A stretch of 64,000 nucleotides of DNA from Bryoerythrophyllum caledonicum (taxonomy: Eukaryota; Streptophyta; Bryopsida; Pottiales; Pottiaceae), in contig OZ020524.1 of NCBI GenBank assembly GCA_963971425.1, positions 22,559,022 through 22,623,021 on the forward strand, given 5' to 3'. The notes under the pieces were generated by a model. It was not told the DNA's origin, ran no database searches, and worked only from the letters and a program-made list of their open reading frames with translations. Below are positions 4,650-63,300 of the stretch, piece after piece. Positions within the stretch are counted from its first letter, which is position 1, and each line of letters starts with the position of its first letter. A program made the position numbers and the translations under genes.

Positions 4650-4781
4650 TATATGTAAAGAACGCCGGTTCTCGAAAGGGGACCGACGTGAATAAAGTGT
4701 CTGTTCGTTCCACTACTAAGACCTTGCCCACCGGACATGGAAGAGTAAACTGGAACTACTTCCCCCTTTTGAGGGTAGACC
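4650..4781 (-). mobile_element. LINE tail (Dualen-like family), 5'-truncated to ~130 bp
   Basis: The sequence matches the last ~130 bp of the full LINE at 31108-41332: GAACGCCGG start, diverged hairpin, GTGAATAAAGTGTCTGTTCG, then GCCCACCGGACA and CTTCCCCCTTT-GAGGGTAGAC. It is flanked by TTCCATACTCA (4639-4649) and TTCCATGCTCA (4782-4792), an 11-bp target duplication with one mismatch. The element lies on the minus strand, with its 3' end at the low coordinate. Confidence 0.8.
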
Positions 4782-5700: not shown

Positions 5701-5716
5701 AACACCCCATCAAAAA

Positions 5717-6882
5717 GTATGGTCCCACCATGGATACTTCCATGTTCATGTGGAATACAAAGATGCCATTGTAACACTAGATTTAAACGAGATGTATTAT
5801 GTGTCCGCAACATACCGTACAACCACCTTTTGCTAGAAGCCCCCAACCTAAAGATCACCATACAATTCATAGAATTCACATATTGCAACAATAGAGTCTC
5901 ACTAGACACAATTTATAAAAAAAAAAATATCATCCTCTTAATAACAAAATTAGCGCACTAGGCTTGAAACTTGATCCACTCATAGTAACTCCGGCTGGAG
6001 CTAGACCCACCACCTATATCCCCTTAATGAAATCTACAGAAGACACATTCAAAATCCCAAACACCTCCATTAAAAACACATTCAAAAATATCAACACCAT
6101 CGCTATCCAATACGCCATGTCTATTCTTCTCCATAAAAGAAGACCAGAAAACAACCAAACTCTACCCGATTCACTTAACACATAAAAATGACTCTTAAAA
6201 ATGGCTCTCTGTTGAGCTTCTTATTCTATAGTGCCTATCCTCGAGAGGGGGAAGTAGTTCCATACTACTAAGGGCCGCTTCACACTTGGTGGCCAAGTCG
6301 AGTGGCCGTCGATTTCCACCAATGAGATTGATAGAATGGCCAAAGTCCGGACTTTGGGCCTCCACACTTGTGTCCAAACTCCAAAGGCCGTCATCCTACA
6401 TGGCAACACTTTTGGGTTGTTTTGGCGCCAAAGTGACGGCCTCTCGAGCAAAACTTGGTTCGCCAATTATTGCGGATCCAAACTACAATCAAGAGTCCGT
6501 CGAATTTTTTAATAAAATAATTAAAAACTGACAAGATCTGGACCATTAGATGAAAGAGGCCAAATCTTTCGACTGATTTTTTAGGGCTGATTTTTTTGGG
6601 CATAATGATATGGGGTTTGGACTTTGGACTTGGCCTTTGGAGCTTCACACCACGACCGGCCAAACCTTCAATCTATATTATTTAATATATTTTTTTGGCA
6701 AAAAAATTTGACCTCTCGCCATAGTTTGGCCACTCATTTTGACGGACGGTCACTCGACTTGGGCATAGTGTGAAGCGGCCCTAATCCTTTATCCAATGGG
6801 CATTGTCTTTAGCAATGCAACGAAAAGACACTTTATTCACGCCGGTCTCCTCCAATGGCCGGTGTTCTTCTTCTTCTTCTTA
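5717..6882 (+). mobile_element. 5'-truncated LINE copy (Dualen-like family), split by a MITE
   Basis: Plus-strand frames encode the C-terminal nuclease domain of the family in pieces: CSCGIQRCHCNTRFKRDVLC, TIQFIEFTYCNNR, then after frameshifts LDPLIVTPAGAR and NTIAIQYAMSILLHKRR. They align to 31375-31850 of the full copy. The 3' UTR follows, with CGAGAGGGGGAAGTAGTTCC, then GGGCATTGTCTTTAGCAATG, the hairpin CGCCGG...CCGGTG and a TTC repeat (about 6864-6881). A 510-bp MITE (6272-6781) with a TAA duplication lies inside the UTR. The coding part is broken. The 5' boundary is approximate, and no clean target duplication was found. Confidence 0.85.
6272..6781. mobile_element. MITE, PIF/Harbinger-like (family C, copy 2)
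   Basis: The ends are GGGCCGCTTCACACT and AGTGTGAAGCGGCCC, a perfect 15-bp inverted repeat, with TAA on both sides (6269-6271 and 6782-6784). Removing it restores the LINE 3' UTR, which proves an insertion. It has no transposase. Confidence 0.9.
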
Positions 6883-7869: not shown

Positions 7870-10317
7870 TCAAGCTGGTTGAGAGTAGGAAGCTTCTATG
7901 CTTGCAATTTCCTTGATGATGGCTGGCTTGTCACCGAGTGGCTTTCCTCGTGTCCAGCGGTAGAGCATTTCAAGCGAGTTCTTGGGCTGGTCCATGGGCA
8001 CCATATGGCCGGCATCGTGTACCTGATCACACACAAATGTTTTTTAGACCAAAATGTCAAATTGTAACGAACGAAAGCCGCAACAGAGTTTGCTTATTGA
8101 GCAGCAGAAGATTACCTTGAGGAATTGCAGAGATCCATAGCCTTTTGTAAGACCAGCTTGTTCACCATCGACTTGGAACTCTTTCCAGGCAGCTTTGGTG
8201 TACTCCGTCTGGCCTGACCATTCCATTGCTGATACCCACCTGGAATTACCTGCATTCAGAAAAATTGTTAAACAAAAGCATCAACTTACAGTGGATCCCA
8301 AAGTGGTTTGCCATTCCAAGAAACTCAAACCTGCAAACAGCGAATGGCAGTACTAACCCAACCAATTGCAGATCAAGTCATATTCTCCAGCATAGACAAG
8401 AAGCTCGATTCCGTCCTCCAAGAGCGCCGGAATTCCTTTCTCAAGGTTCTTCATCCAATCGACCAGCATGGCCCCATGCACCAAGGGACTACATTCCACA
8501 AACTTTCGGTCTCCAACGCCCAGGGCTTCTCGAGTTGACGCGTTGTTCATGAAGGTGTCCAGATTGGAAAAGTCGTAGCAAAGCGCACCCTGGCATTCCT
8601 TCCGCACATCATAATACTGCCCCCCAAAACGACAAACAAACGCAAGGTGATCAGTGCTACGAAACGAGAAACATTCACATCTCAGATAAAAGTTTGTGAG
8701 TTAAATCAACACACCTTCATCTATTCTCGTTCCAACTTGCGTTTTTCAAAAAGGTGATCCATGTGAATGAGTTAAAGACTCCTCTGGAACTCTCTGTTGG
8801 AAAAGATGAGAGAAACTTACATTGATATTACCCGTAATCAACAAAACAGAACTGAAGATGCTCTGACAGACCACGAGAGCTGCAACGCAACCGATGGTTC
8901 CCTTTGGACCTAGACATCGAAAAGCAATCCACAATATCAAGTTCAGAAACCACACTGCACTGAGCACCTTCAAAGATAGTCAATGCCCCAAATCCATGAT
9001 ATCATAAAAGTGACCAACATAACAAGCACCTTGTTCCGCACATCAAGCCTTACCACAAAGTTTGATGGCTGTTACACAAGCCGGATAAAGCTTCATCAAA
9101 TTGGCGTGATCTGCAACAGTAATGAGGTTCATATCCAGGGCGTAGTCAGCATACGCTCCATACTGAATATCAGGCTGAGTTAGGCCATTTCCAATCGCAA
9201 AACCCTGCACAAAATAACAACACAAACAAGGGCCGTCTTAAAAAGTTGTAAGAGAATAAGATATGCTTGATGTTCAAGTTACATAAGAGACATGGTTACA
9301 ATCTCACCTTCAAGTTGATAGGAACACCTTCTTTCTTCTTCAGCGCCTTGTGAAGGCGTGCAGCGACCGCTGGCACGTAATGGCCGGCATAGGACTCGCC
9401 CGTGACAAAAAACTTGTTCCTCGCATACTCAGGATGCGCTTCAAAGAACGCCTGCTACCGAAACAAACGCAATAAGAACACACCAAAAAGGAAAAAAAAA
9501 CCGGTGAAGAACTCAGTCCTGGAAGACAAACCTGAAAGAAGTCGTACATGTCTTCCCCGACTCCCTCCTCGTTGTGGCGAATGTCGCGTATGTCAGTGCT
9601 GTAACTGAACCCCGTCCCCACAGGTTGGTCCACGAAGATGATGCTCGAAACCTGTTGCGTATGTCAGTCATGTTGCACCATCACAAAAGAATGCAGGAAC
9701 AGTGGCTTACCTTGTCCCAGCCATAGTCGTTCCAGACGAGCGTGAGATTGTCGGTGATCTTGAACGGGCCGTTCTCGTAGAACAACGCGAGCTCACTCGC
9801 GCAGCCGGGACCGCCCGTCATCCACAGCACCACCGGGTCGTCCGTCTTGTTCCCTCGAGACTCAAAGAAAAAGTAAAACATCCTGAAAACAATAACACCT
9901 ATCCCATTAATGGCAGAAGAAGATGAGGAAGTCTATCGATCAAATTCAGAAATCTATCCCATCTGCAGAAGAAGTAGAAGAAGATCAAACTGATGGAGAT
10001 GAGGCACAGCTTGATTACTTGGCGGCGTGCGTTCTTGCGAGCTTGAAGTAGCCCGCATACTGCCCGAGCTCTTCAGTGCTGATCCCGGCATCTCCTCTAA
10101 CGTCCAACTTGACGCGCCGCTCCTGCAACCGAGGCCCGTCGTCCAGGAACTCATCAACGCCAGCCCCAACATCTGAGGTCCCCGGAATCAGATTCAGCGC
10201 CTTGATCATGCTCTCCGCTTGGCCCAGCGGGAACCGAGAACTCATCGCCCGGCCATGAGAGAGGCCGCAAATCAGCGACAGCAAAAGCACGACGCTCCAT
10301 AGCTTCGCGCGAGCCAT
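7870..10317 (-). CDS. serine carboxypeptidase (SCPL48/49-like, family S10)
   Basis: Nine exons join to 506 codons: 10317-10019, 9882-9711, 9651-9532, 9451-9308, 9204-9054, 8909-8821, 8616-8358, 8249-8116, 8022-7870. All introns are GT-AG and phases agree. The start MARAKLWSVVLLLSLICG is a signal peptide; an ATG 18 bases upstream is possible. The family marks are GYFKLARTHAAKMFYFFFES, TGGPGCASELALFYENGPF, the nucleophile Ser ~217 in GESYAGHY, Asp ~405 in YAGEYDLICNW and His ~462 in DAGHMVPMDQP, so the catalytic triad is complete. S10 enzymes remove C-terminal residues in the vacuole or outside the cell. DQPVGTGFSYS and the overall length match the SCPL48/49 group (carboxypeptidase III type) better than the acyltransferase SCPLs. 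Nothing looks broken. Confidence 0.93.
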
Positions 10318-16406: not shown

Positions 16407-16468
16407 AAGAAGAAGAAGAAGAAGAAGAAGAAGAAGAAGAAGAAGAAGAAGAAGAAGAAGAAGAAGAA
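16407..16468. repeat. AAG/TTC microsatellite (LINE 3' tail)
   Basis: About 20 uninterrupted AAG units end at the LINE hairpin. The same trinucleotide ends every copy of the family in the window, so it is the element's tail and not an independent microsatellite. Confidence 0.9.
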
Positions 16469-16560
16469 CGCCGGTCCCCGTAAGGAGGCCGGCGTGAATA
16501 AAATGTCCGTTCATTCCACTACTAAGTCCATGCCCACCGGACATGGGTTAGTAGTATGGA
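16407..16560 (-). mobile_element. LINE tail (Dualen-like family), 154 bp
   Basis: It consists of a long AAG repeat (16407-16468), the hairpin CGCCGG-TCCCC-GTAA-GGAGG-CCGGCG type stem, GTGAATAAAATGTCCGTTC and GCCCACCGGACATGG. It is flanked by perfect 11-bp duplications CTTCAGCTAAC at 16396-16406 and 16561-16571. Deleting it restores the A-family element. Confidence 0.92.
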
Positions 16561-29786: not shown

Positions 29787-30375
29787 TACACTAATGATGT
29801 TCATTAGTGTTATGGCACCAATAGTGTAACTACCCCTATGACCTGACTTTCACTAAATGTCAATTTGTTTACATTTAGTGTTTAATGTCAAAAAATTAGC
29901 CTAACAAAATTGCTCATAACTTTTGCATTACGAAGAATTAGAAGATGTACCGTATACCGGTAGAATCTCCTTGAAAAAACACATAAGCTAGTCATCTCAC
30001 TCAATAGAATTGGTGCGAATTTGATAAAGATATGCCTCCTCAAACTTTCAACAAAAACTCAAGAAATCTGCCCAAAAATATTCGCTATAACTTTTTATTT
30101 AAGACAAATTTGAAGATGGGTAAGGTGCCATTGGAAGCGTCTTTTCAAATCAGTTTAGATAGGCACCAAAAACTCTCAAATTGGACAAAAATTGCCCCCG
30201 AAATCATCATTTGAAAAACCAACCTTCAAAAAATCAGCCCAACATGGAAGGTTTGCATTTAATATGTGGCAAAATTTGGGTGACTGCAATGAATTGTTAC
30301 ATAACCAACACTAAATGCCAATATGTTAATATGTAACAAGGGCAAAATTTACAAAAAATGACAATTACACCGTTC

Positions 30376-31010
30376 CCTGAATATAGTGTAGACTAGACTA
30401 TTTGAAATTTCCTACAGTAATTTCAATAAACGCAAATTAAAGTGGTCCACTTGAATTTTCCATCCACATCAAATCATGTCCATTAGAAATAGTGTGGCTT
30501 GTTTCAAAATAAAAGACACGGGAATTGATGTGGATAAGTTTTTACAAATTGTACTCAAAACCAAAATTATAATATAATAACATAATAATAACATAATAAC
30601 ATAATATAATAATAACATAATAATATAATAACATAATAATATAATAACATAATAATATAATAACATAGTAACATAATATAACATAATAATATTATTTTAT
30701 AACATAAGAATATAACATAAGAATATTAAAATAATATTATAATATATTATAACATAAAATAATATTAACATAAGAATATAACATAATAAAATAATAAAAT
30801 AATAAAATAATAATAACATAATAATAACATATAATACTAACATATTCATATTATATACAATAACCAAAATTGATGTGGTCTACCTCAATTTTCATCCAAA
30901 ACTAGAATTGATGTGGTCCACATCAATTTTCATCCAAAACTAGAATTGATGTGGTCCACATCAATTTTCATCCACATTACCTATACCTCCAGACTATATT
31001 CAGTGAACGG
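30376..31010. repeat. D-family block with tandem palindromic units and AT-rich microsatellite
   Basis: The block is bounded by CTGAATATAGT and its inverse (ACTATATTCAG). From about 30569 to 30850 it is made of ATAACATAATA-type units. From 30868 to 30975 the palindromic word TTGATGTGGTCCACATCAA recurs (first copy diverged), joined by TTCATCCAAAACTAG. Similar words are at 5290-5605. Confidence 0.65.
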
Positions 31011-31107
31011 TGTAGTGTTTAAGTTGACATTTAATGTTGTTACATTAGTAGGATAATTTACATTTAGCGTTTAAGTTCGTAAATAGTGTTGTGAACACTA
31101 ATGAACA

Positions 31108-31250
31108 GAAGAAGAAGAAGAACGCCGGTTCCCGAAGGGAACCGGCGTGAATAAAGTGTCTGTTCGTTCCATTGCTAAGACCATGCCCACCGGACAAGGA
31201 ATTAGCGAACTGGAACTACTTCCCCCTTTCGAGGGTAGACACTATGTAAC
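31108..31250 (-). other. LINE 3' end: hairpin and TTC tail
   Basis: At 31123-31147 CGCCGGTTCCC-GAA-GGGAACCGGCG forms a perfect 11-bp stem with a 3-nt loop; on the element strand it is followed directly by the TTC repeat. The ~125 bp up to GAGGGTAGAC (31240s) are shared by all five copies in the window. Position and conservation suggest the site recognised by the element's own RT. Confidence 0.85.
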
Positions 31251-31359
31251 GAGTAGCCAGAAACCAACCAACAAAGACCAACCACGACCAAACTAACTAA
31301 ACAACAAAAAACAAAACCAAACAGGCAGCCAATCAGGAAGAGACAGAGTGGCGAAGTTC

Positions 31360-32325
31360 CTAAGGGGGGTCTTGCCTATCAGGGAGGACTTGGTTGTTTC
31401 CGATTTTGCGTTTATGCAGTAAAATAGACATGGCATGTTGAATAGCGATGGTGTTGATATTTTTAAAGGTAGTTTTAATTGTATCAATGGGTATCTTGAA
31501 GGTATCTTCGAGAGTTTTCATAGATGGGATAAAGGTGGTGGCACGAGCGCCTGATGTGATTACAATAAGGGGGTCCACATTCCAACCGAGGGCAATGATG
31601 TCGTCAATAAGGGGTTGGTATTTATCTATTTTGTTTTGTATTGTTTCCGGGGAGAATCTATCGTTGCAATATGTAAATTCGATGAATTGAATGGTGTAGT
31701 CTTGGTTGATGTTCTCGGGTGGTGGGTCGTTGTATGGTAAACCTTTGACACAAAGAATGTCCGGTTTGAGCCTAGCGTTGCAATGACATCTTTGGGTCAT
31801 ACATGAGCATGGAAGTAGCCATGGGGGGACCGTGTTTTCTTGTGGATTGCTATTAAAAGTGCCGGCGTTCATAAGTATGAAACATCTCGATTTATTGTAG
31901 GAGGTGATTAGTTTTCGGACTTCCCATACCGCTTTGTTATGTCTTTTAACAATTAGGGAGTGTATGTGGTGGTTTTGGCATTTGAGTAGCACATGAAGCC
32001 ATGTGTCGGGGTCCGTTGAGGGGCATATGGGGCATGTTATGGATGGGAATCTTTCTATTCCAAAGAAGAGTTGTTTGCGAGCGCTTCCCATGTACTGACC
32101 CGTACGGAATTTGATGAGGCACGTTATTTGTGAGTCTGAGATGATGGGGTTTTTCCAAAAGTTTGTAGAGAGTTCATTGTCTATGTCGTTATTGTTAGTC
32201 CATTTTTCTATGTTAGGAATATTTTCTGAGATTGTATCCAGGTTGTTGTAGAGGTCTTGTTTTTTGAGATATTTGCCCAAAAATCTAATTGGGCCTTTGT
32301 CGGGGTATCTTCTTTGGAGGGCCAA
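31360..32325 (-). CDS. LINE C-terminal module: CCHC knuckle and PD-(D/E)XK restriction-like endonuclease
   Basis: This frame overlaps the end of the RNase H frame by ~118 nt and is in -1 relative to it. Within the overlap the upstream frame reads TCA-AAA-AAC, the slippery heptamer A_AAA_AAC (32265-32259) in correct phase; a shift there gives a continuous protein. The module has a knuckle C-x2-C-x9-H-x4-C (CPIC...WLHVLLKC, as in R2-type elements), then KPDILCV (PD), IQFIEFTYCND (the E of E-F-T) and KIDKYQPL (K-x-x-K-Y), then PLIVITSGARATTFIPSM. This is the layout of restriction-like endonucleases of R2 and Dualen elements. It ends with the TAA/TGA region at 31360. A decayed second copy of this module is at 5717-6185. 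Confidence 0.85.
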   Translation of the reverse strand: MALQRRYPDKGPIRFLGKYLKKQDLYNNLDTISENIPNIEKWTNNNDIDNELSTNFWKNPIISDSQITCLIKFRTGQYMGSARKQLFFGIERFPSITCPICPSTDPDTWLHVLLKCQNHHIHSLIVKRHNKAVWEVRKLITSYNKSRCFILMNAGTFNSNPQENTVPPWLLPCSCMTQRCHCNARLKPDILCVKGLPYNDPPPENINQDYTIQFIEFTYCNDRFSPETIQNKIDKYQPLIDDIIALGWNVDPLIVITSGARATTFIPSMKTLEDTFKIPIDTIKTTFKNINTIAIQHAMSILLHKRKIGNNQVLPDRQDPP

Positions 32326-35300
32326 TCTTCTTTTTGAAAGTAGTATGGGGTGGCATGAGCATGTTCGTGAGGGTCTTTGGCATTTTTGTGTGTTTTTTCT
32401 CGGCCTTCTTTTGCAAGTTTGTCTGCTTGTTCGTTGCCATCAATGTTGGCATGGGCTCTGACTTTGTGAAGGGTTGTGATTTGTGTACGTTTTTGTACCA
32501 TTTGTACCATTGATGATAGTATGGTTTGGTCGGGGTGACTGTTGTGAAGGGTTGGATGTGTTATTTGAGTGTTTAGTAGGTAGAGTGCATTTATACAATC
32601 AGTGAATATATGTGCAGGTTCATTTTTGTATTTTGTTGTGATGATTTGTAGTGTTTTGTGAATGGCCATGAGTTCTGCTCTGAGGATATTTTGTAGTCCA
32701 TGGAGTCTTTTGGCTAGTTTAATTTCTTTGGTAGAATTATATATGCCATAGCCAGCTTTTTCTCTTCGCCAAGAGCCCGGGCTAATTTGTTCCGGTGGTT
32801 TAAAGGAGCCGTCGGTGTAATAACTGTATGCGGGGTTAAATTTTGGTGTGGTATGACTTGGGTAGTCTGGGAGAGGGGGAGGTATGACAGAGTAGTTTAA
32901 TGTGTTGTTGTCATAGTTTAATTTTGACCATTTTTTACTTTTGTTTACGGGGGTTTGTATGGGTGTTGGTGGGGCCGGTTTTGTGTATGGTCGTTGTATG
33001 TCTAGATTGTCTGTTATGGAGGTAAGTTCCGCAAGTTGTTCTAGGGAGCCCAGGTTTTGATTTTGATGATGGACGCATAGTATTTGTAATGTAGATGGCT
33101 CTATTCGGGGTTTTTTTAGCTCGGGTGGGATATTAGGTTCTTCGTATGGTATTGTGTCTGCTTCGAATAATGCAATGATGTGGGAATCTGGGAATGGGTT
33201 TGAATGTTGGTCGTTGTTTTGGTACCACTTGTTGTTCGGTGTGACGATGATTGTTTTTGTGTTATTTGGATCGTGTTTGGCGGCAAGTCTAGCCCAATGT
33301 ATGGCTTGTTCTATGTCTTTCTCGTTGTGGGGGTGAGCTATTCCATTTCCGATCCATTTGTGTTCAAAGGCCTTGCCTAGGGATCCAAATATTTTGTCTC
33401 TTTCGTACGGTGAGTAGAATTTATTTAGTTTGGTAGGACATGTGATCGGGGAGGAAAAGTATGAGTGTTCGATGTTAAAGGATGATATTAGTGAGTCTAA
33501 AATGGGGGTGGGTATTGTGTATTGCGCATTTTTGAGGGGGTCAGTTTTTGGTATTCGATATTTATATCTTTGGTAGAGCCATATTAGTTCGGTTTCAAAG
33601 GGTTGGGTTGTTGGTTCAATGTTTGTAGGGGTTTGTAATTTTGTATGATATTGGTTCCATAACCATTGGAGCCGGGTAATGGGTATGGTGTGTAAATGTC
33701 GGCCGTTTTCTTCGTATAGATGTGCTTGATTGTTATCTATTTGAATTGTGTTTGAGGATGTGAGGATATCATTTTTGGGGTTGCATTCTGTTGTGTAGAT
33801 GTTTAAGAGTGGGATAATTATGGGTGGCGTTACGGACCTTGAGTCTGAGGATTGTTCTTGTGGATGGTGGGCAAGGATGATATCTGAGTATATTTTGTTT
33901 TGGATCTTTTGGTAGTATTGTTTTAATTTTTCGGTGTTATGTGTGGAGGTATTGGTGTCATGCCGTGGAAAAAGGTCTCTTTGGGGGAGCCATTTATTGT
34001 ATGTATTATCATTGTGTTGCCATTGGCATAGATATTTTGTGTAGGTATTTTGTATGTTATTTGTGTCTGTGTGTTGGATATGTTTATGGTTTATGATATT
34101 ATTAATGGGGTATGTGGTAGGGTTTTTGGGGATATATGTTGGGGGGCGGGGGTGGTATGTATGTGGAGGATTAGGGGGATTGGTTGGTGTGGGAATATTT
34201 CTTGGGATGATGTTATTGTTGAGGGTGATGAACTGATCTTTAAGTGTATGAGAGTATGGATGTATGTTGCAAGGAGTATGACATAGAGTGGGGCATGTTA
34301 TGTGGCAAAATAGTTGTTTAGCAACACTTAGGGCATTCTTTATTAGTTTAGATGGGGTGAAGTGGTAGGTTTTGAAGTCCTCATTGTTCATGATGTGTGT
34401 ACCGTTAGGTAAGGTAATTTGGTTTAGTTCAAAAATATTTTTTGAGAGGAGTTTTTGTAGAAGCTTTTGGGAGAGTTGGGCATTGAGTGTGCTATGATTT
34501 AATGTTTTTTGGCTCCATAGTATTTCTAGTGTTGTAGGATTAGTGAGGAAGTTCGGGAGCGTACTTTTAAGGTGGGCTTTAGCTATATGTTTTAATAAGA
34601 AGAATGTTCGTGTTATTGGTGATCTTATGCAGTCACTTTTTTTAATTCTCGGTATGTTTTCAGTGCCACCATATTGGGCAAGGACATAGTGAGTTAATCC
34701 ATTATATATTTTCCCAAGTCTTCCTTTATCGTTTAGAGCATTTTGCAGTTGTTCGCCTATACATCGGAGGTATGCGTTTTTGAGGGAGAAAGCTTCAAGT
34801 CCAAATAGGTTATGTGGTAGTTGGGTTATTGCGTTTGACATACATTTTGGTAATCCACATATGGTTTTTTGTATGGCTATTATTTTTTTATCAAGTTTTT
34901 TGATAGCTGGCATAGAGTATGGTACACCGTAGAAACTGTATGCCACACCTGGGCGTAGTACGGTATCAATCATTTTTATTTTTTGTTTCATGGTGGCTGG
35001 GCATGTTGTTAGTTCTTTGCATTGTTTGATGAGTTTTGTCGTTGTGGTGTGGATTTGGATTTTCCATTTTAGTGAGGGAACAAGGTTTGTGCCTAAGTAT
35101 ATGTATGGTTCATTTTGGTGCAGTATGGGGATCGGTTGATTGCGGTAATTGATGTTCGAGGCTTGCATTAGGGCTTTGAAAGTGGTAGGATTCAATTTGG
35201 ATTTGTTTGGGCAACCGGTAGCGGCACATTTTGGGACACCTACGTCCATACCGGCCCATTTACAATATCTATGAATTTTGTTTAGTTGTATTTGGATTGA

Positions 35301-37820
35301 TTTGATTTTGTTAGTTATGGTGGCTAGGTCATCCGCATATGCGGCAGAGTTTATTATGACCTGTGATGTGCCAAAAGTGTATCCGTAATTTCCTCTTTCT
35401 AGCCATCTGAGTAGTGGTTCTAGAAATATAATGAATAAGTATGGGCTGAGGGTATCCCCTTGTATAGTTCCTCTTTGAATGGGTATAGGTTTTGTTTTCC
35501 CAAAGTGTTCACCGGTATAACATGTAGATGATTTAGAATAGATGTTTCCAACAAGTGTAGTTGCATCTTTTGGGTAGCCAAGGTCCATCATTATTGCTAG
35601 AAGTCGGGCATGGTCAATTGAGCCAAAGGCATTTTTGAAGTCCACGTATAGTATGTATATATCTTGGTTAGTAAACTTTGCGTCTTCTAGTGCGGCTATT
35701 ATAGTTTGTATTTGTCGTGCGGTACTTCTCTCTGCTCTAAATCCTTCTTGACTATCATGTAGGATTTTGAATTTTTCGCCGTATGAGGATAGTATGGAGG
35801 TGAGTGTACTGGTAAAGAGTTTGTATATTGTGTTAGATAGTGCAATTGGTCTATGGTTGGGTAGTATGGACGGGTCGCCTTTTTTGTACAGTAGAATTGT
35901 TGTACTCAATTTCCATGAGTTTGGTATCTGTTTTTGTTTATAGCAGTGGGAGAAGAACAGAAATAATAGCTTGTGAAATCTTGGAGGCATGTTTTTTAGT
36001 ATTGAGTTTGGTATGCGGTCTGGGCCTGGGGCTTAATTATTTCCTAGATTTTGAAGGCATGTGTCGTATGTGGCTCTGTTGAGGTATTTATGAAGTGGAA
36101 TTTCTGGTTCGTCCCGTTTGTCAAGGGTATATCCGTCCAAGTCGTGCCAAGGGTATTGGCGTATTGCACATGTGCATTCTATTGTATGTTGTGGCTGGTA
36201 ATTACATGTTGGTACTGTTGGTCTATTGGTTTTTGTTTGTTGGTTAAATATTTCATTCGCAATGTCTTCGGGGCTAGTTAGAATATTATTATATTGATCT
36301 TTAATACAATCCATTGGTGGGGATTCAAGGTTTTTAAAGACTTTTCTGTTAATTTTTTTGGGGCTGATTTCGTATAGTTGTCTGTATTTTGAGATGGCTT
36401 TTTTAATGTTTTCTTTTGTGTATTTTGTGATTATTTTCCGGGCTTGTATGTTGGCATTTTTTGCAATTATCGCGATATCTTTTATCCATGTATCGTGGGG
36501 AAGGTCCGGAGGCGGCGGGGTAGGGATTTGGGTGTGTTGTATAGTTAGTAGTTCGTTGTGTATGGGGTGGTTACGCCATTGAGGGTTGTTTTTTACAATT
36601 CTAATGGTTTTACGTATGGTATGGTATGTGGTTAAGTGTTGTTTCCAAGTTTTAGAAAGTTTGCGGGGTAGATACCCGCCTTGTTGAGAGGTTCTGTTTG
36701 TCATTTGGGGTATTGGGTGTGCTCTACAAGTTTGTTCTAGTGTATCAGAGATTTTATTGATGAGTTTGTCTAGAGAGTGGCATGCTTCTTGCCATTGTGC
36801 TTGTGTTAATTGGCTATTGTTTTCAAGAGTGTTTATGAGGGAGTCTATTTGTACAGAGTTTTCTTCGAATAATTTTGTGTTGAATTTTTCTATGTTGGTT
36901 TTTGGGATGGGGTTGAGTATGCGTATAGTGTCTTTGTTTGGGATTGTAGGAGTTCTACTAATTAGTGTGTTATTTGGGATGTGCAGTTGTACGGGTGAGT
37001 GGTCCGAATTGAGAATAATATCTTTGTTTGTTGTGGCGGTGTATTGTGTGTTGTTGTTTGTATTTATATAGAAACCATCTATTAGACTCCAATCACTATA
37101 ATTGTAGCCACCTTGTCTAGAGAATTGAGTATCGGTATTGATGTAAATGAAATTTAAGTTTTCGGTGAAGCGGCGCCATTGGTAATCAATGTTTTGAGGG
37201 GGGGTGTGGTGGTTTCCATTTTGGCGGCCAATTAGCGCTATGTCTCTATTGAAGTCTCCACATAATAGGTATGTATGATTGGGATGATTATTAATATAGG
37301 TTGTAATAGTGTTTTGTATATCTAAGAGAAATCTAGTATCTTCGGGATGAGATGGCATATACATGTGAAAGATTAACCACGGTTGTAGTGGGTGATTAGT
37401 GATTTTAATTATTTGAATGTATGGTGATATGTGCATTGGGGTAGGGATTTTGTTGATGTTGCCGGGGAATGTATATTTTTTGTGTATTAATGTAAGGAGG
37501 CCACCGCGGCCCGGTGTGTATGGTCTCCTTTGTTGCATGCATCTTGTAAGTGCATGTGTATTGTTAAAGATGAGTTTATAGTCTTGAAATATATTTTGTA
37601 TATATTTTGTAGATTTTGTGGCGGTTAGTTTTGTTTCTTGTATAACTATAAGAGCCGGTGGTGTGTCTGCGTTTGCGACTAGAGTTTGTAAGCTAGGAAG
37701 GGCAGTGTTTAGTGAGGAGGCATTCCATGTGATTATGTATGTATTTTCTTGGTTTGGTCTAATGTTTTGATTTTGGTTTTGAGGAGGGATGTAGGGAAGA
37801 GGTGGGGGTGGGTGGGTGTA
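32208..37820 (-). CDS. LINE polyprotein: APE endonuclease, reverse transcriptase, RNase H (one internal TAA)
   Basis: The frame is open after the TAA at 37823 without an early ATG. Endonuclease: YIITWNASSLN, VIQETKL (catalytic Glu), LLCGDFNRD and LNSDHSPVQL (catalytic His). A single TAA at 36035-36033 falls just before APGPDRIPN, the conserved first RT block, in the same frame. The RT then has YVDFKNAFGSIDH (first Asp), QGDTLSPYLF and AAYADDLATI (YADD), all intact. A long linker follows. RNase H is near the end: YYTDGSF, AELMAIHKTL, HIFTDCINAL and HKVRAHANIDGNEQADKLAK, so the acidic residues are complete. The frame closes at 32210-32208. Endonuclease nicks the target and RT copies the RNA onto it; RNase H is common in plant and algal LINEs. 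Confidence 0.9.
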
Positions 37821-40800
37821 TTATGGTATAGGGTCTAGACATTTTAGTGATTCACTTATGAGGTTGTTAGGGAGGTAAGGAAATTTTAGTTTTATTATAT
37901 CATTTGAGGGTGGTATGTCTTGACTATGTAAGAAGTCGTATAGTCTTTTATGTATTGAGTTCTCATGGTTTATAATATTTTGGTTGTCTACTAGGAATTC
38001 AGTATAGCGGTGTGGGGTGTAAATGTGTCGTTCTGGTGGGTTTTGTAAGGTTAGTAAGGTTTGTAGGAGTGTATTAGTCCATGTAATTGTGTTCCAATTT
38101 TGTGGGTTTAGAAGTTGGTTACATTCATCTATGTTTGGATGAGTAGTGATTATTAGTGCATATAAGATGTGGGGTGGTGGATGCGTATTTTTTTTTGTTG
38201 TATGTATTGGACAATGTTTGGGTGGGAAGTGTTTTGTATGTGGTGTAATGTATGTGTGTTTTTTAGAAATGGTGCGAAGGGTTTTGCAATGTGTTCATAT
38301 TCTGGTTGGAGTTTTATGGTATTAGGTATAAAGTAGATTTTGGCATTTTTTTTATGTGATGTAGGATGTCTTTTTAGTATATTGGGCATGGGTCCCGGGT
38401 TGGTTTCAATGTCTCCTCCTAGAAGTAGTAGAAGTTTGTGGTATATATGTTTAGTGGTGTATTTTAAAGGCTTTGTTGTGTTATTAATGACTTGTTGGTT
38501 TGGGGGTAGGTGGATGTTTGTATTTTGTGTGTGAGTTGTGGATTTATTTGTTTTTATAGTAGGTGTAGTTGTTTTCATCTTTAGTTTATTTTTTGTCCAT
38601 GTGTTTTTTGTGGTTGTTTTTGTTTTAGTAGTGTATGGATGTATGTATGATTGGTTGTATTTTATCTTGGTTGTTTTTGTCCGTGTGCATATGTAACTAT
38701 TATGTTTAAGATTATTTGTATGTGGGTTTATGTTGGTTTTTAAAGTGGCTTTTAAGTCCTTTTGTTCATATGCGGTGTTATTATATACTTTGTGGTTTGT
38801 ACAATTGTTTGTTTTGGTGTTTGTATTAGTATTTGGTATGAAATATGTTTTGGTATTCTTTTTGTGGGAAGCGGGGTGTTTTTTTTTTAATATGTTCGGC
38901 ATGGGTCTTGGGTTAGTCTCAATGTCTCCTCCGATTAATATTAGTAGTTTGTAGTAGATGGATTTTTTGTTTTGTTTTAGGGTTTTTTGTTTTTGTATGT
39001 GGCTTTGGTATTTTATTTTACGTTCTTTTGATTGTATGTATTTATCTTTGTATGTGTGTGTGCATATGTATGTATTTCGTTGGTGGTGTGTAGTTGTCTT
39101 TGTGTGTGTATATGTTTTCGTATTTGATTTTATATTAGTATTCATTCGTATGTTCGTATTAGTATATGCCTCAATATTTGTCTTGGTATTTGTATCAGTA
39201 TTTGTGTTAGTATTTGTACTACTATACATACCAGTATTCGTGTTGCTATTTGTATCAGTATTCGTATTAGTATATATATCAATATCTGTATTAATATTCG
39301 TATCAGTATTCGTACCCGTATTCGTATAAGTAGATGTACTAGTATACGTACCAGTATTCATACATGTATATATACCAGTATATGTATTAATATTCATACC
39401 CGTATATGTATCAGTATACGTACTAATATTCGTACCCGTATATGTACCAGTATACATACGAGTATAAGTGTTTTGATGTGAGAGATTATTGGGAAGGTCG
39501 CTACTAGGAGTGGGGGGTTGCTGTGGGTTTAGGTGGGTCGCTGTGGGTTTAGGGGGGTCGGTACGGGGGGTGGGGAGGTCGTTACTGGGACTATGGTAGG
39601 TCGTTATGGGAGGGGAGAGGGTAGCTAGTATGGGTTGGATGGTCGCAGTCTCGATTGGGGAGGTCGCTGGAGGCTTAGGGAGGGTCGTTGGGCTCGTTAG
39701 ATAGGTCGCTAAGGGTTTAGTGGCCGTTGGGTAGAAGGTCTCGGGGTTTGCTTCGGGCAGGGAGCAGTCGGGTCTGTTCAGCGGGGGAGGGTGTGGAGGA
39801 GTTGCTGTCTGGGAGGGTGGATCGCTGGGGTGTGGGTGGGAGGGGTTGTTCGCCTGGGGGTGGGTGGGGAGTCTCACTTCGGGAAAGGGGTGGGTGGGGA
39901 GTCTAGCTGCAGGGAGGGGGTGGGAGGGAGTTGTGGGCAGTGTGGGTAGTGGTTTTAGAGGAGAAGGGGGGTGGAGGGTGAGAGGTAGGGAGAGGGGAGG
40001 TCGGTAGAGGCAGGGAGAGGGGAGGCAAGGAGAGGGAGAGGGGGATCGAGAGGAGGAGGGGATTCGTGGGGGAAGGGAAGGTGAGTTTCGGGAGGAGGAT
40101 GGGGGAGGTTTGTTGTGTATCTCTGTCTCTGTTGCTTCAGCTGTGTGGTGTGGTGTGGGTGGCGTCTTGTATGTTCGTCTCACATGTGTTGTCTCGCTGG
40201 TTCTGTCTTGTCTTGCTGTGGATGTTGTTGTCTTCTTTGGTGTTGTCCTTGGATGTTCCCCTCGTGTTGGAGAGGGGTAACTGTACGTTTGTTTCTGTGC
40301 TCTATCTTGTGTGTTCTCCTTCTGGGTGTCGGTTCCGTCTACTTTATGTTGCTGCCTGATCAGGGTTTCTACATGTTGATAGGTTTGTGGTTTTTCTCCC
40401 TTGTTTCTACAAAGAAATTGGCAGCGCTTCCGCGCGCAAGGGGTAGATCTGGACCACGAGTTGTGGCGGGAGGTATGTGAGTAGGAGGTGGGTCTAACTC
40501 TTGAGGTGTCGTGTCTATCCAGTGGTGTGTATGAGGATGGGGTTTGTAAACTGGGGGTGGTTTTCCTACTGTAACAAAAACGAGAATGGAAATGGAGGTT
40601 GGTGAGGGACTTACCTAGATTTGGTAGAGCTGATCTGTTGGAGTGCTCGTGCAGGTCTGGTGTTTGGAGCGCGGCCCGGTTCGTGGGTGTTGTGTCTCGC
40701 GTTACTCCGGGATATGTTGCTCCTTTGTTGTAATTGATGGCAGCTCCTCTGCTGCAGCTGTTTCTGTGAATAAAGCATACACTTGTACGTATGATTTTAC

Positions 40801-40834
40801 AAATTGTGTTAGTGAAGTTTAATACAAATACCAA
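37821..40834 (-). CDS. LINE ORF1 region: Pro-rich, Thr-rich, two 2A-type motifs, -1 shift near its end
   Basis: The frame runs from the ATG at 40834 to a TAA at 38155-38153 (893 aa). Residues ~245-450 are Pro/Ser-rich. Residues ~452-580 are a degenerate Thr repeat (YTGTYTGTN, NTNTDTNTKT). At residues 637-644 lies DIETNPRP after KLLILIGG, and at 808-815 lies DIETNPGP after KLLLLLGG. The ~45 residues around each are a duplicated unit (MPNILK...SHKKN-KYFIPNT). At residue ~879, CAA-AAA-AAA-ATA forms the slippery heptamer A_AAA_AAA (38195-38189). In the -1 frame the sequence stays open and protein-like for ~120 codons (NTHPPPHILYALIITTHP ... LKFPYLPNNLISESLKC) to a TAA at 37823-37821. The role is unknown; LINE ORF1 proteins usually bind RNA, but no RNA-binding motif is seen here. 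Confidence 0.8.
38390..38440 (-). other. 2A ribosome-skipping motif (canonical)
   Basis: The codons for KLLLLLGGDIETNPGP end at 38390 and the next codon is Met. The pattern D-(V/I)-E-x-N-P-G-P after a Leu-rich run and Gly is the full 2A consensus, at which ribosomes skip the last Gly-Pro bond and release the upstream protein. It would separate ORF1 protein from the downstream enzyme polyprotein. The activity is inferred, not shown. Confidence 0.85.
38903..38953 (-). other. degenerate second 2A motif (NPRP)
   Basis: The codons for KLLILIGGDIETNPRP lie 171 codons upstream of the canonical motif. The invariant Gly is Arg here. On the plus strand CCCGGG of the intact copy corresponds to CTTGGG: two adjacent C-to-T changes. 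Gly before the final Pro is essential in known 2A sequences, so this copy is expected to be inactive. Confidence 0.8.
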
Positions 40835-41332
40835 ATAATTGCATGAGATGAGTGGGTGAGAGGAAGCCTGTAATGATGGCTTGGGGCTGCGTAGCAGCAG
40901 TAGTCGGTGCTGACTTCGTGCGATCTTGACGTTTGAGTTCCTAGGTTGGGGAAGGAGGGACTTGATGGAGAGGTTTGTAGATCATATCCCAGTACTCCAG
41001 ATCTGGGATGGATTATTGCCCGTGTGGACTAAGTGTGTGCAGATCTGACCCCAACACTAAGATCCCCGCTTCAGCACTAACTTGCTCAGATCTGTACTTG
41101 CTTAGGGCATCAACAAACTCCTCCACCTCAGATCTAGTGTATGAACCATCCAACACAAGTGCTTTGCATCTCAAATCTCACCATACCACCTCTGATCTGC
41201 ATACTACGAGGGCTCACAATAGGGCCAGCCACCTCCTATTGCTCGTTGTTTGCAGCTCACAGGCTAAGTCCCCACCTCCCCTCACCAGGAAATACGGAGC
41301 TCACACGCTAGTCATCTCTTCTCCCAGACCAT
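40835..41332 (-). other. LINE 5' UTR
   Basis: About 500 bp lie between the 5' target duplication and the ORF1 ATG. They contain several CAGATCTG/AGATCTGA words and short upstream ATGs. An internal promoter is expected here but no element is recognised. Confidence 0.5.
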
Positions 41333-42525
41333 CACTAATGAACATCATTAGTGTAGTGAAGAAAAAAGAGAAGTGATCAATACATGGGTGACCAAAAATT
41401 GCACCGACTTGTTGAAACTTCCAAAGAAGCCCACCAATGACAAGCTGACATGAGGTGGAGCAATCGATAAGTGTTGTTGAATTTTTTTAGTTATAACTAT
41501 CTGAAATTTGTATTGGCTCATTTTTTTGTCAAAGTTCATTGTTCCATATGTAATCTACAGAAGATGTTTGAGGAGGGATTCAATTTTGGGTCACTCCACT
41601 TATGCTATGAATACCCTTATGTTTGCATGTGTAGCTTGTGATAGGTTTGTTTTACTTGCACCTATTTGGTTGAATAGGTGAAAGATAGGACATGGTGGAA
41701 AATTACTTTTGTATGAGTCAATCTTCATAGCGTTTAGTGGTTGCATAAATTTTCCCTTTTGTGATGGTGGCAAACTAGGCCATAGTCGTGGTTCAATTTG
41801 GATGTACATCATCTTTATTTAAATCTTAGCAAAATAAGAGGTAATTTGAGTGAGTCCACAATATATTGCTTCCTAGCAAGGCCCTTGTCTTTCTAAAACC
41901 TTTTCTAGTTTGCTACACCATTATTGAATTTTGGACCTAGATACAACTTGTAATGATTGTTCTTTATGCATTCCACGGGGTTTTATTTTCAGTATTTACG
42001 TTTTTCAACCGATCAAAGAATAACATGTGCCAATTTATTAGTCAATTTGTATATGCTATGAGGTTATGTTGTTATGACTAAGTATATGATATAGTATGAA
42101 GGATATAACTTGATCTAGATTGTTGGACATTTGCTATTCTTGGTGCATTTACATCATTCACTATAGTAGAACTCTTTGTAATGAGAAAATGGAGAATTGA
42201 GTGACAACTTTTTGAATTTCCTTATAAGGTAGTTTTTTTTCAATATCTCTAATATGTTTGACTACGCCAATCAACATGCATAATATGGCTATTCTTGTAA
42301 TGGATAGCATTGGCGTTTATGTAAAATTAGAGTAGAAACCTAATGAATAATCTTTGAGGTGCAAATTCTTATGCAACAATCTATTAGTTGGTTTACCACT
42401 ATATAATTAGTCTAAGTACTATAGAGATTGTTAATGAGGGTTGTTAAGAACTTTGAAATTTGTTGAACTTAGTCTTGTAATGTCTCATCTTAGAAAGGCA
42501 ATTCTGGGGTGGTTTTGGAGTAACA

Positions 42526-42625
42526 AGAAGAAGAAGAACTCCAATCCCCAAAGGAGATCGATGTGAATATAGTGTTTGTTCATTCTCTTCACTATGCATA
42601 TGGCCATGGGACATAGGCTAGTGGT
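42526..42625 (-). mobile_element. LINE tail (Dualen-like family), ~100 bp, decayed
   Basis: AAGAAGAAGAAC is followed by a decayed hairpin (CCAATCCCC-AAA-GGAGATCG), GTGAATATAGTGTTTGTTC and CCATGGGACATAGG, matching the LINE 3' end. Short flanks GTAACAA (left) and GTAACAA (right) are a possible target duplication. Most changes are C-to-T or G-to-A. Confidence 0.75.
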
Positions 42626-58397: not shown

Positions 58398-59170
58398 CCT
58401 ATAAGAGTCACAATAGTAACACACAATGTGCGGGGAATGAATGAATACACTTAGAGAGATGTTATTAGAGATTACTATTTTAGGATGTTGGGGAGGGTAG
58501 ATATCATCTATTTACAAGAGACTAAACTTAGAGGTAGCAAGTTTCAAGCACTAGACGGACTGTTTTGGCCGGGTGCCAGGTTCACAGGTCAAGAAGCTCA
58601 AGTTGCGTATAATAACGAGGGTAGAGATGAGGGAGCAGGAAGTGGGGGGCTAGGAATGTGGATAAATCCGAAGCTCTCACACGCATTATGTAGCCAAGGA
58701 CATACGCAAGGAGGTAATGCGCAATGGGTTACATTTAAGGGCCTCCCAGGCGGTGAGATTACCGTCCTGAACATATACGACCCGCATAACTGGGCAGAAA
58801 GATGTCTATTGTGGAGAGAGCTGATTCACGTGCTACCTCGCACAAGCAGATGGATCCTAACAGGAGACTGGAATTTCGTCGAAGCAAAGGAGGACAAATC
58901 AAACCGATGCGAATCATATAGATCCATAGAAGAGAAATTTATTTTCCAAGAACTCAAGGACGTGCTCGCTGTAGAAGAAGTATTCCCCAGCAAGAGTAGA
59001 ATCAAGTTCACCTAGGACAGTAGAAGGAGAGACGGGAGCCGAGTCCTGGTGCGACTGGATCGCACCTATATATTCTGAGGTGCGCTACCACAGGCCTTGT
59101 GTGAGTCCTATTATATCCTCGGAGACACCCCTCTATCAGATCACCTTCCAGTCGTGAGGGAGCTGCATCT
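58398..59170 (+). pseudogene. L1-type APE endonuclease
   Basis: VTIVTHNVRGMNEYT is followed by a TAG at 58450-58452, then DIIYLQETKLRGSKF (catalytic Glu), WILTGDWNFVEAKEDKS (Asp and Asn) and, after a TAG at ~59014, VLVRLDRTYIF and LSDHLPVVREL (His). All expected motifs are there but at least three stops break the frame. Confidence 0.85.
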
Positions 59171-59204
59171 AGAACCTCTCCAACAAAGACCGTGAGTTTA
59201 TGTC

Positions 59205-61360
59205 ATGAATGCCACACTATTGAAGAACCCCAAAGCGCAACAGGGTATCAGACAAACTTGGATGCGTTTCACACACCTGTCCTTCGGCAAACTGAGAAGA
59301 GTGGTAAGATTTTATAAAACCTTCTGCATCAACCATGCAAAGGAGCGCAAGAAGGAGGAATTAAAAACGAGAGGAGAGCTGGAAGAAGCCCACAGGAAAC
59401 TCCAGGCAAAACCTGATGATCAACCGACCGAGGAGCAACTCGAATCTCTGCCCTCGTGTCTACAAGAAATGGAGAAGAAGAAGGTAGAAGGAGAACGACT
59501 GAGAGGCAGACTTAGATGGCTGGAAGTAGGTAACAAATGTTCTAAAGAATTCTTTGCTGCACACAAAGTTAGATCTTCGGCTTCTCAAATTACGGAGTTA
59601 TTAGACGAGATGGGAAGGATGGAGTCTTCTCAGTCAGGGTTGGAGAGTATATGCCAGAACTACTACCAACGGCTCTATGAAAGGCGGCAGTCCTCCCCGG
59701 CCACAAAAGAGGCAGTTCGACTTATCCTCCCCTACTTGAACAACAGACTGGACAAGCAGATGAAAAGCATGTTGCATGAGCCAGTCATTGTCGAAGAATT
59801 GAGAGCTGCTTTAGGTGACATGCGACGTGGGAAATCTCCGGGACCTGATGGAGTAGGTGTAGAATTCTACACCACGTACTGGGACCTCATTGGCGACGAG
59901 ATCGCCTCCATGCTCCGATCCAGCACCAGCAACGGCAAACTGCCTCTAGGAATGTCGCACGGATTGTTGGCACTACTTCATAAAGGTGGGGAACGTAAGT
60001 CCTTGACGAACTGGAGACCGATCTCACTCTTGAACATATCATACAAATTTTTTGCCAAAGCCTTACAGAGACGTTTGCAACCGATTCTGATGGACATCAT
60101 CAGCCCTGAACAATCCGCCTTTCTTCCTCTTTGCTTCATCCTTGACAATTTATTACTCACCCATGAAACCATGTCATGGGCAGAACAGTCAAACCAACCT
60201 CTATTCTTCCTGAAGTTGGACTTCACTAAGGCCTACGACATGGTGGATTGGGACTACCTATTTAAAATCATGTTAGCATTCGGCTTCCCTGAAGAGTTCA
60301 TGTCGATGATTAGAATCTTGTTCCATGATGCCACATCGGCGGTCAAAGTAAATGGTAAACCAAGACCAGCGTCCAAGATCGAAAGAGGCGTACGGCAAGG
60401 ATGTCCACTGGTGTCGTACTTATTCATAATCATCGTGGAGGCTTTGAATACTATGGTGAAAAACGAAGCGCATAATGGGTGTATGGTCGGCATCAAGCTC
60501 CCGAACACAGAACAACAACAGATTCTTGCCCAACATGCAGATGATACGTCATTTACTCTACGCGGAGAGGAATAGTCTGTGAGATACCTGATACAGATTC
60601 TTAACAATTTTTGCTTGGCCTCGGGCTTGATCATCAAGTGGGTAAGTCCTGTAGATACTAGCAAGACTAAGGAGGACCGGACAGGCCTGCATGGACAAAC
60701 CATTTGGATATTACCTAGGCTGAGACCGACGACGTGAACAAACTACTGGGCTCACCATTTGGTATGGCGCTTACTACGAGCTCCGTCGACAACTTTTTGT
60801 ATGAGTGTATCTCAAAGAAGCTCACCCACTGGAGCTCCACTAAGCTCAATCCTACAGGTCGCAGTGTAGTCGCCAACAGGGTGCTCTTATCAACACCTTT
60901 ATTCTTCCTTTCAATTTTGGGGAGGCACTAAAAAGGGGATTAAGCGAGTCAAAGGACTCATCATGAATTATCTTGCTTCAGGTACGTCGAGGCGGTCTCG
61001 CACCCGTGTGAGCTGCATTCATTACTGTTAGACAAAAGCGCGTGGAGGGCTCAATCTCATTAATATCGAAGATGCAGTGACAGCGCTAATGACGAAATGG
61101 GTGCTAAAAGCCATGGAACCTGGAGTGTCTAACCTGCACTACCTCCTAAGATTCCGTCTTATCACATCTCAACCCTTCGCCAATGGCAGATGGAAAGCCA
61201 GCCTTGACTACTTCACAATGAGTAAACACCAGTCTAAAAAAGGGTCCATCGTGTGGAATAAGGTGATGTCGGCGTGGAAAAAAATGCTGTCGTCTCTGAA
61301 GTATTGCCCGCCTTCCACCATCGAAGAGCAGTTGAGTAGTAGCCTGTGGTTTTGTCCAGT
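59205..61360 (+). pseudogene. L1-type reverse transcriptase
   Basis: An open part to 60575 (456 codons) holds KSPGPDGVGVEFYTTYWDLI, NWRPISLLNISYKFFAKAL, PEQSAFL, LKLDFTKAYDMVDWDYL (first Asp), GVRQGCPLVSYLFIIIVEAL and QHADDTSF (HADD in place of the usual FADD). A TAG at 60573-60575 closes it. Thumb and linker pieces follow in other frames (SGLIIKW, MNKLLGSPFGM, KLTHWSSTKLNPTGRSVVAN) up to the foldback insertion. Inactive. Confidence 0.9.
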
Positions 61361-61414
61361 TGTGTAGGCCTTTGGCCCGGGGTTTGTCCGCTCGCGGGCA
61401 GGGTTGTTCGGTCG

Positions 61415-61560
61415 TCCGTCCGTCCGGTAGTGTCCGTCCGTCCGTCCGTCCGGTAGTGTCCGTCCGTCCGTCCGTCCGGTAGTGTCCGTCCGGTAGTGTC
61501 CGTCCGTCCGGTTGTCTGTCTGGTAGTGTCCGTCCGTCCGGCTGTCCGTCCGGTAGAGGC
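61415..61560. repeat. GTCC-rich minisatellite in the left arm
   Basis: Units of CCGTCCGTCCGTCCGGTAGT of variable length repeat about eight times; the right arm has only two or three, so the array expanded after the arms formed. Confidence 0.85.
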
Positions 61561-61724
61561 TGTTGTCCATCCGATAAGGGTCAACCCTGGTTTGACCATG
61601 AGTCGAGGTAAATCAATTTATCCACTGCCACGAAGGCGACTACGTGGCTGACACGTCGTCAACAGGGTCGCGCGTGTGCAGACAGAGGGGCGGGTGCGTA
61701 CGGAGATGGGCCGGGCGCATACTG

Positions 61725-62320
61725 AAGGGGCCGGGCGCAAACGGTTTAGGGCCGGGCGCAAACGGTTTAGGGCCGGGCGCAAACGGTTTAGGCCGGGCGC
61801 AAACGGTTTAGGGCCGGGCGCACACTAGAGGNNNNNNNNNNNNNNNNNNNNNNNNNNNNNNNNNNNNNNNNNNNNNNNNNNNNNNNNNNNNNNNNNNNNN
61901 NNNNNNNNNNNNNNNNNNNNNNNNNNNNNNNNNNNNNNNNNNNNNNNNNNNNNNNNNNNNNNNNNNNNNNNNNNNNNNNNNNNNNNNNNNNNNNNNNNNN
62001 NNNNNNNNNNNNNNNNNNNNNNNNNNNNNNNCCTCCTTGCACGCGCCCAACCCCTTACAGTACGCGCCCGGTCCACCCCTGTACGCGCCCGGTCCATCAC
62101 GGTACGCGCCCGGTCCTCCCTTGTATGCGCCCGGCCCCTTCAGTGCGCGCCCAGCCTCTCACAGTACGCGCCCGGTCCACCCCTGTATGCGCCCGGCCCA
62201 ACACGGTACGCGCCCGGTCCTCCCCTGTATGCGCCCGGCCCCTTCAGTGCGCGCCCAGCCATATCCGCACGGCCCCGGCCCCTTCAGTATGTGCCCGGCC
62301 CATCTCCGTACGCGCCCGAT
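61725..62320. repeat. GC-rich tandem units flanking the gap, inverted between arms
   Basis: The left side has four ~21-bp units of GGGCCGGGCGCAAACGGTTT. The right side has ~12 units of the type GTACGCGCCCGGTCCACCCC in reverse sense, with GTATGCGCCCGGCCCCTTCA variants. The two arrays are complementary in their GCCGGGCGC core. Confidence 0.85.
61832..62031. other. assembly gap (200 N)
   Basis: Exactly 200 N lie at the centre of the inverted arms, a placeholder of unknown true length. The palindromic GC-rich arms explain why assembly failed here. Confidence 0.98.
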
Positions 62321-62540
62321 CCCTTCACGCGCCCGCCCCCTGTCCGCGCGTGCGCGACCCTATTGACGACGTGTCAGCCACGTAGTCGCCTCGTGGCATT
62401 GGGTAAATTGATTTACCTCGAGTCATGGTCTAACTAGGGTTGACCCTTATCGGACGGACAACAGCCTCTATCGGACGGACATCCGGACGGACATCTAGAC
62501 GGATGACACTGCCGGACGGACGGACGGCCGAACAACCCTG

Positions 62541-63300
62541 AAGGTCACCGAGGGTGCCAAGAAGACCATCATTCATTTATTCTATGGAAGAAGTGACATG
62601 CTTACGTGGGATTTTGAACGTTTTAAATGGGATGGGGAAACGCCTTTCATGGAATTTTCTGCCAAAATCGGCCGCATGCTTCTGCAACGCAGGCATAGAG
62701 AGCCTTCTATCACCTGTGGTCATGAATAAATGGAATGGGATCCTGCGGGAGTCTTATAAACTCAAATGGCTCAACATTTGGGATTCGGAGAGAGCCCAGA
62801 AAGAAGCCGGTCTCATTTGGGCTATTTGGCACAAAACTATTGCGGTCAATGTCTGGAGAGGTAGGACTCATGTGGAGATTGACCAAAATTGTCCCGTTTG
62901 TGATCGTGGTACTCCTGAGAGAATTCTGCACAGGTTCTGGGAATGTAATTCCGCTAAAGATACTTGGACGTGGGGGTCCAGCCTTCTGATTCAGATGTTG
63001 CCGCGGAGGCTTGACAACCAGAGTGCCCAAAGGCACAGAAACAATAACAACTTGGACGTGATGAGAAGCCGGCTGTGGCGGCAAAGGAAAGGAGTGCCGT
63101 GAAGGAGCTCGATTCACCAACAGCCTGTCAGACAGGAAGCTCCCCCGTCCCGTGAGGACTCCTCCGGCGATACCGACAGGGAGAATAGGGAGGTCGTTGC
63201 TAATAGAGTTCGAAGTGCGGGGGACACTCATAGGGAGGCTTATAATACTTACGAGTTCAACCCCAACTGGAAACACGGAGTTTCCGGTCACAGAATCCCG
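62541..63300 (+). pseudogene. L1-type LINE C-terminal zinc-binding domain (zf-RVT)
   Basis: After the foldback element, VTEGAKKTIIHLFYG and then, in frame with 62554-63102, AGLIWAIWHKTIAVNVWRGR and CPVCDRGTPERILHRFWECN-SAKDTW follow: the C-x2-C...H-x3/4-C pattern of the zf-RVT domain of plant LINE RTs. Later pieces (IILWQLWCKRNDAAFNN at about 63345) continue the same protein in broken frames. Confidence 0.8.

Follow-up and report, generated by a model that had tools for sequence, protein, structure and literature searches.

2A sequences have reportedly been found in non-LTR retrotransposons: the 2006 work of Heras is said to describe one in L1Tc of Trypanosoma cruzi, and that of Odon in 2013 deals, going by its title, with 2A in multicellular organisms, namely in non-LTR elements of the APE type (both as cited in PMC4981915 and PMC11512398). 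Rao et al. (Cell Rep 2025), by its title a survey of 2A sequences in eukaryotes and viruses, may include cases in plant retrotransposons or in Dualen. According to the excerpted text of another survey, the StopGo core is (D/G/C/N)(V/I)ExNPGP, several classes of L-rich hexapeptide are described upstream of it, and position 18 is almost exclusively G (PMC12846837). The same excerpt, which covers nearly 10,000 viral StopGo sequences, reports nothing to suggest that plant viruses use StopGo naturally, even though 2A is functional in plants, and puts six plant-virus hits down to host misassignment (PMC12846837). As for the Dualen/RandI elements, a table of 2015, in its excerpted form, has them in green algae only (PMC4438587).

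The window (that is, the whole stretch of 64,000 nucleotides analysed) harbors on its minus strand a non-LTR retrotransposon of 10,225 bp, located at 31108-41332, with edges uncertain by a base. The element is flanked on both sides by the 12-bp direct repeat TGTTCATTAGTG, a target-site duplication with its 5' copy at 41333-41344 and its 3' copy at 31096-31107 (minus strand); thus, the element is full length. Its 3' end (31108-31150, minus strand), as obtained from folding and repeat search, consists of the strong hairpin ACGCCGGTTCCC-TTCG-GGAACCGGCGT followed by a (TTC)n tail. The assignment to the non-LTR retrotransposons is based on a reverse transcriptase (PF00078, E 3.4e-26), the 12-bp duplication, and the lack of LTRs: the repeats listed include no LTR-like direct repeat shared by its ends. 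The strand bias of the whole 31108-41332 region is extreme, the coding strand being A- and C-rich but G-poor, with a plus-strand GC skew of up to 0.58 per 2 kb.

The open pieces of the element, all on the minus strand, were assigned by Pfam. The first (36036-37820, followed by a TAA at 36033-36035) contains an APE-type endonuclease N-terminal to the reverse transcriptase (PF03372; 27.7 bits against a cutoff of 24.5, E 2.8e-6). The second (32211-36032) carries the reverse transcriptase, a PCIF1-like domain (PF12237, E 2e-10), and an RNase H (PF00075, E 9.3e-13); in the comparison of the reverse transcriptase with the PDB, the best three of five matches are named R2. The PCIF1-like domain lies between the reverse transcriptase and the RNase H (33228-33635, minus strand), and its match to solved PCIF1 structures is weak (E 0.19). 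Human PCIF1 is a cap m6Am methyltransferase. The C-terminal piece, in a further frame (31363-32439, minus strand), was recognised by motifs only: a CCHC-type zinc motif (31978-32034), KRHN, KPD, and IEFT, motifs that we take to be those of restriction-like endonucleases. This piece has no Pfam match above the cutoff; its single-sequence structure prediction was of no use (pLDDT 33), and two PDB sequence matches, at E 1.7 and 1.8, were discarded as not credible. NCBIfam returned no match above its cutoffs, and tRNA and Rfam searches returned none in the window.

The original prediction had described a dual-endonuclease LINE. The APE-type endonuclease is borne out by its score above the Pfam cutoff; the second endonuclease is less firm, being identified by motifs only. 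The APE domain N-terminal to the reverse transcriptase, the RNase H, and a 3' tail made of a simple repeat instead of poly(A) are the features of Dualen/RandI; judged on sequence, the architecture is Dualen/RandI-like, with a putative second endonuclease.

The translation of the window places the octapeptide DIETNPGP at 38390-38413 and, immediately upstream of it, the leucine-rich KLLLLLGG at 38414-38437, both on the minus strand. The span first proposed for the motif (38390-38440) is therefore correct, and the strand, which had not been given, is the minus one. DIETNPGP fits the core definition of StopGo, and, together with KLLLLLGG, it confirms the exact 2A core in a leucine-rich context that had been reported from the letters of the sequence. 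In this copy, p12 is D, p11 is G, and the hexapeptide is of the LLLL type; compared by eye, its LLLLGG is similar to the LLLLSG-like class except for p10, which is G here and A, S, or C in the excerpted survey (PMC12846837).

The octapeptide might, in principle, be chance or unrelated sequence without a recoding role, all the more so as the frame that encodes it is of low complexity and compositionally extreme (A 0.38, C 0.33, G 0.11). However, the expected number of core matches at the frame's own composition is only about 3e-7; for the window, base composition gives 2.4e-5 and 2.7e-5 per strand, that is, about 5e-5, and D-x-E-x-N-P-G-P matches just once in the six frames of the whole window and the core never in 60 dinucleotide shuffles of it. 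The upstream context, compared by eye, also resembles a known class, and the module is duplicated and conserved as a peptide. A chance origin was thus rejected on the composition expectation, the shuffles, and the synonymous bias described below, and the whole explanation is hardly credible.

The frame bearing the 2A (38153-40981 with its stop, minus strand) has no stop codon over 942 codons, compared with 36 and 59 in the two other frames of the same strand (941 codons each), and when the region was shuffled 500 times, no open frame on this strand exceeded 210 codons; a frame of this length is unexpected by chance. It comprises a Pro/Ser/Thr-rich part, a Thr/Asn-rich part with 12-nt repeats, and two 2A modules, and its first in-frame ATG is found only at 39457. 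The repeat array of ORF1 extends over 39073-39492, encodes the Thr/Asn-rich peptide, and was listed in 25 registers. According to the frame and the domain order, the 2A does follow a Pro/Thr-rich ORF1 and precede the enzyme part of a LINE, as the original prediction held.

The second of these modules, which had escaped that prediction, lies upstream and reads KLLILIGG-DIETNPRP (KLLILIGGDIETNPRPMPNILK, core at 38903-38926, minus strand), so that the two cores are 513 nt, or 171 codons, apart. In a BLASTN search with the low-complexity filter off, the upstream copy (38814-38993) matched the downstream one (38306-38482, IYHKLLLLLGGDIETNPGPMPNILK...YFIPNT, both on the minus strand) with 73% identity and an E value of 3e-24; the next matches were far weaker (best E 9e-6), and we read them as due to low-complexity sequence. 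The alignment shows that the Gly of the downstream core is replaced by Arg in the upstream one (GGA to AGA, as written from copy 2 to copy 1), which does not fit the core definition. Since position 18 is almost exclusively G in the excerpted survey (PMC12846837), NPRP should not work, and copy 1 is predicted to be inactive. On the plus strand, copy 2 reads CCCGGG and copy 1 CTTGGG, in CG and CHG contexts. If the change ran from copy 2 to copy 1, this would be compatible with a decay of the NPRP copy through the loss of methylated cytosines. However, the observed/expected ratio of CpG in the element, 0.69, is close to the 0.72 of the remaining window.

The differences between the two modules fall mostly at synonymous sites. 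Over 58 codons defined on DNA, dS is 1.59 and dN 0.23, with 15, 11, and 27 differences at the first, second, and third codon positions, respectively (Fisher 1.4e-7; binomial for third positions 0.006). In the 43-codon module IY...PNT, whose bounds were picked by protein similarity and from which one extra codon of copy 1 was omitted, dS is 1.83 and dN 0.10 (8, 2, and 20 differences; Fisher 3.6e-10), and in the 25-codon 2A part, also bounded by protein similarity, the values are 0.92 and 0.09 (6, 0, and 9 differences; Fisher 1.7e-4). Neutral simulations, in which an equal number of changes was placed at random with A/C-rich bases and codons turned into stops were dropped, reached the observed pN/pS in none of 5000 runs for each of the 58-, 43-, and 25-codon sets; for the shortest one, the observed value (0.169) is near the lowest simulated (0.18). 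The strictest test, for which the ungapped 96-nt repeat was delimited from the DNA only, gave 8, 3, and 12 differences by codon position (p = 0.048). From this predominance of synonymous differences, we conclude that both 2A modules appear to have lived long as a translated, selected peptide. Conservation of the motif under purifying selection among genomic copies had been put forward as a check; the paralogous pair within the window, a small version of such a survey with one pair only, shows purifying selection.

As regards the junction with the enzyme, the present copy of the element is dead: it has a TAA at 37821-37823 and another at 36033-36035, and its frame is broken within 38153-38294 and within 32208-32439. 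The open piece of the enzyme frame at 37824-38294 (minus strand), which ends at the first of these stops, contains no in-frame ATG, and the region scanned (38500-37300) offers a first ATG in this frame only at 37538, by which point the APE match has run for about 65 codons. An ATG directly follows the 2A core in both copies (at 38389 in copy 2). Since there is no enzyme-frame ATG upstream of the APE domain, translation of the enzyme appears either to have run on from the preceding frame or to have begun at the ATG immediately following NPGP. The direct fusion of the 2A to the polyprotein that the original prediction assumed is less firm; in the present copy, the two frames differ by one base and overlap by 142 nt (38153-38294, minus strand), and we infer the fusion for intact relatives. 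We read this break as decay and rank a -1 frameshift site below a lesion.

The same junction allows another scenario, in which the 2A core is a relic, once working and already unused by the family, the enzyme being obtained through re-initiation at the AUG after NPGP or through a -1 frameshift in the 142-nt overlap. The ATG after both cores would suit it, as would the NPRP of one core out of two and the -1 register of the overlap, within which the heptamers A_AAA_AAC (38264) and C_CCA_AAC (38222) are in phase. However, such a heptamer is unsurprising in a sequence with A at half and C at a quarter of its positions, and the 104 nt folded downstream of either one show no strong stimulating structure (-0.9 kcal/mol after A_AAA_AAC and -5.8 after C_CCA_AAC). 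Moreover, the second break, with an overlap at 32208-32439, is of the same sense and fits plain decay, and the peptide was kept by selection up to and beyond NPGP. We consider the relic unlikely. A more elaborate arrangement, in which two tandem 2A sites would yield ORF1p, a middle peptide of about 171 residues, and the enzyme, with a -1 frameshift at A_AAA_AAC after the second 2A setting the enzyme dose, is quite improbable; if true, it would be, to our knowledge, the first natural StopGo in plants and the first StopGo followed by a frameshift in a retroelement.

The reading we favor, and in which we have good confidence, is that a Dualen/RandI-like LINE probably carried, in its living ancestor, a working StopGo at the boundary of ORF1 and the enzyme polyprotein, which it would separate. 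On translating the Pro/Thr-rich ORF1, a ribosome would reach ...KLLLLLGGDIETNPG and free ORF1p with a 2A tail; translation would resume at the next proline (P-MPNILK...), producing an enzyme with the order APE, reverse transcriptase, PCIF1-like domain, RNase H, and putative restriction-like endonuclease, which would lack an in-frame start codon of its own before the APE domain. The module would have been duplicated in tandem, both copies being kept under selection at the protein level, with the upstream one coming to read NPRP in the dead genomic copy considered here. The excerpted text of one study has 2A separating proteins in N. benthamiana cells (PMC4981915); thus, the plant ribosome is capable of skipping.

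Whether the host is a plant depends on the rest of the window. BLAST found the same 3' end at four other places (4658-4780, 6228-6262 with 6781-6880, 16453-16546, and 42525-42585), and folding predicted a hairpin in each of five such ends, at -23.8 kcal/mol for the element and between -10.9 and -19.3 kcal/mol for the rest. The fragments sharing the hairpin mostly share the tail too, and the one at 6.2-6.9 kb is broken by an insertion. A piece at 5689-6170, belonging to the fragment at 5689-6262, encodes part of the C-terminal domain in two stretches, 58 and 70% identical and in different frames, and reads KRD where the element has KPD. Given the four additional copies of the 3' end, the family is, as far as these matches go, resident in this genome, and neither a stray insertion nor a chimeric contig is likely. 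Just past the 3' end of the LINE, at 30366-31014, imperfect 27-bp inverted repeats (89%) flank AT-rich 8-nt repeats in a MITE-like arrangement. The plus strand carries a second LINE, of the L1 type (58455-63099), whose APE domain (PF03372), reverse transcriptase (PF00078), and zf-RVT (PF13966) sit in separate pieces, the last two being set apart by tandem repeats and a gap of 200 N.

The host might instead be a green alga or another eukaryote, or the contig a contaminant, as the 2015 table with Dualen/RandI in green algae only would suggest. Nor does a carboxypeptidase fragment (8356-8700) suggest a plant, since among solved structures it matches carboxypeptidase Y entries only, those of the yeast enzyme. 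Against this stand the zf-RVT L1-type LINE, a fragment with an SH3_retrovirus domain that we take to be Copia-like, genes of the window that resemble a land-plant SCPL carboxypeptidase and PEX7, and the resident family itself. A host other than a land plant is in our opinion distinctly unlikely; the plant host of the original prediction is nevertheless less firm than the motif, leaning as it does on the zf-RVT LINE, the Copia-like fragment, and the gene resemblance. Scans of viral_contigs with 411 residues of the reverse transcriptase, the 58-residue 2A module, and the C-terminal endonuclease-like piece, and of genome_contigs with the same 411 residues, retrieved no close relative, nor did a degenerate 2A DNA pattern match in viral_contigs; as the sequences scanned are viral and prokaryotic and such scans pick up only close relatives, the outcome is uninformative on plants.

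In comparison with known systems, LINEs with a 2A have been described, as have the Dualen elements of green algae; among the open-licence literature matches listed, no report combines the two, none places a 2A in Dualen or in any retrotransposon of plants, and none describes plants as using 2A naturally. Going by the citing sources, the 2A of L1Tc and of the APE-type LINEs is, like the present one, a D(V/I)ExNPGP in frame within the element; in contrast to the APE-type LINEs of Odon (2013, by title), this element adds an R2-like reverse transcriptase and an end resembling a second endonuclease. If a 2A did work in such an element, 2A sequences in LINEs would be older than thought or would have arisen more than once. 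The green-algal Dualen/RandI elements, in the excerpts at hand, share with it the APE endonuclease, the RNase H, and a simple-repeat 3' tail, and have a restriction-like endonuclease that is putative here (PMC4640811, PMC3747384), whereas their tails are (ATT)n or (CTATTT)n instead of (TTC)n, and the present element has two 2A modules. The viral L-rich StopGo motifs 2 and 6 of the excerpted survey likewise place an L-rich hexapeptide with a final G ahead of D(V/I)ExNPGP, differing in the p10 residue noted above (PMC12846837). Should a plant genome indeed harbor a LINE whose 2A was kept by selection, plants would have a native 2A and, with it, a setting in which to ask why 2A is otherwise unused there. 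Lastly, some picornaviruses, according to the excerpted text, carry several 2A-NPGP sites in a row, spaced by about 50-150 residues (PMC11512398); here, the tandem lies in a retroelement, the cores are 171 residues apart, and the upstream site reads NPRP, so that the two modules provide a natural comparison between an intact and a changed core.
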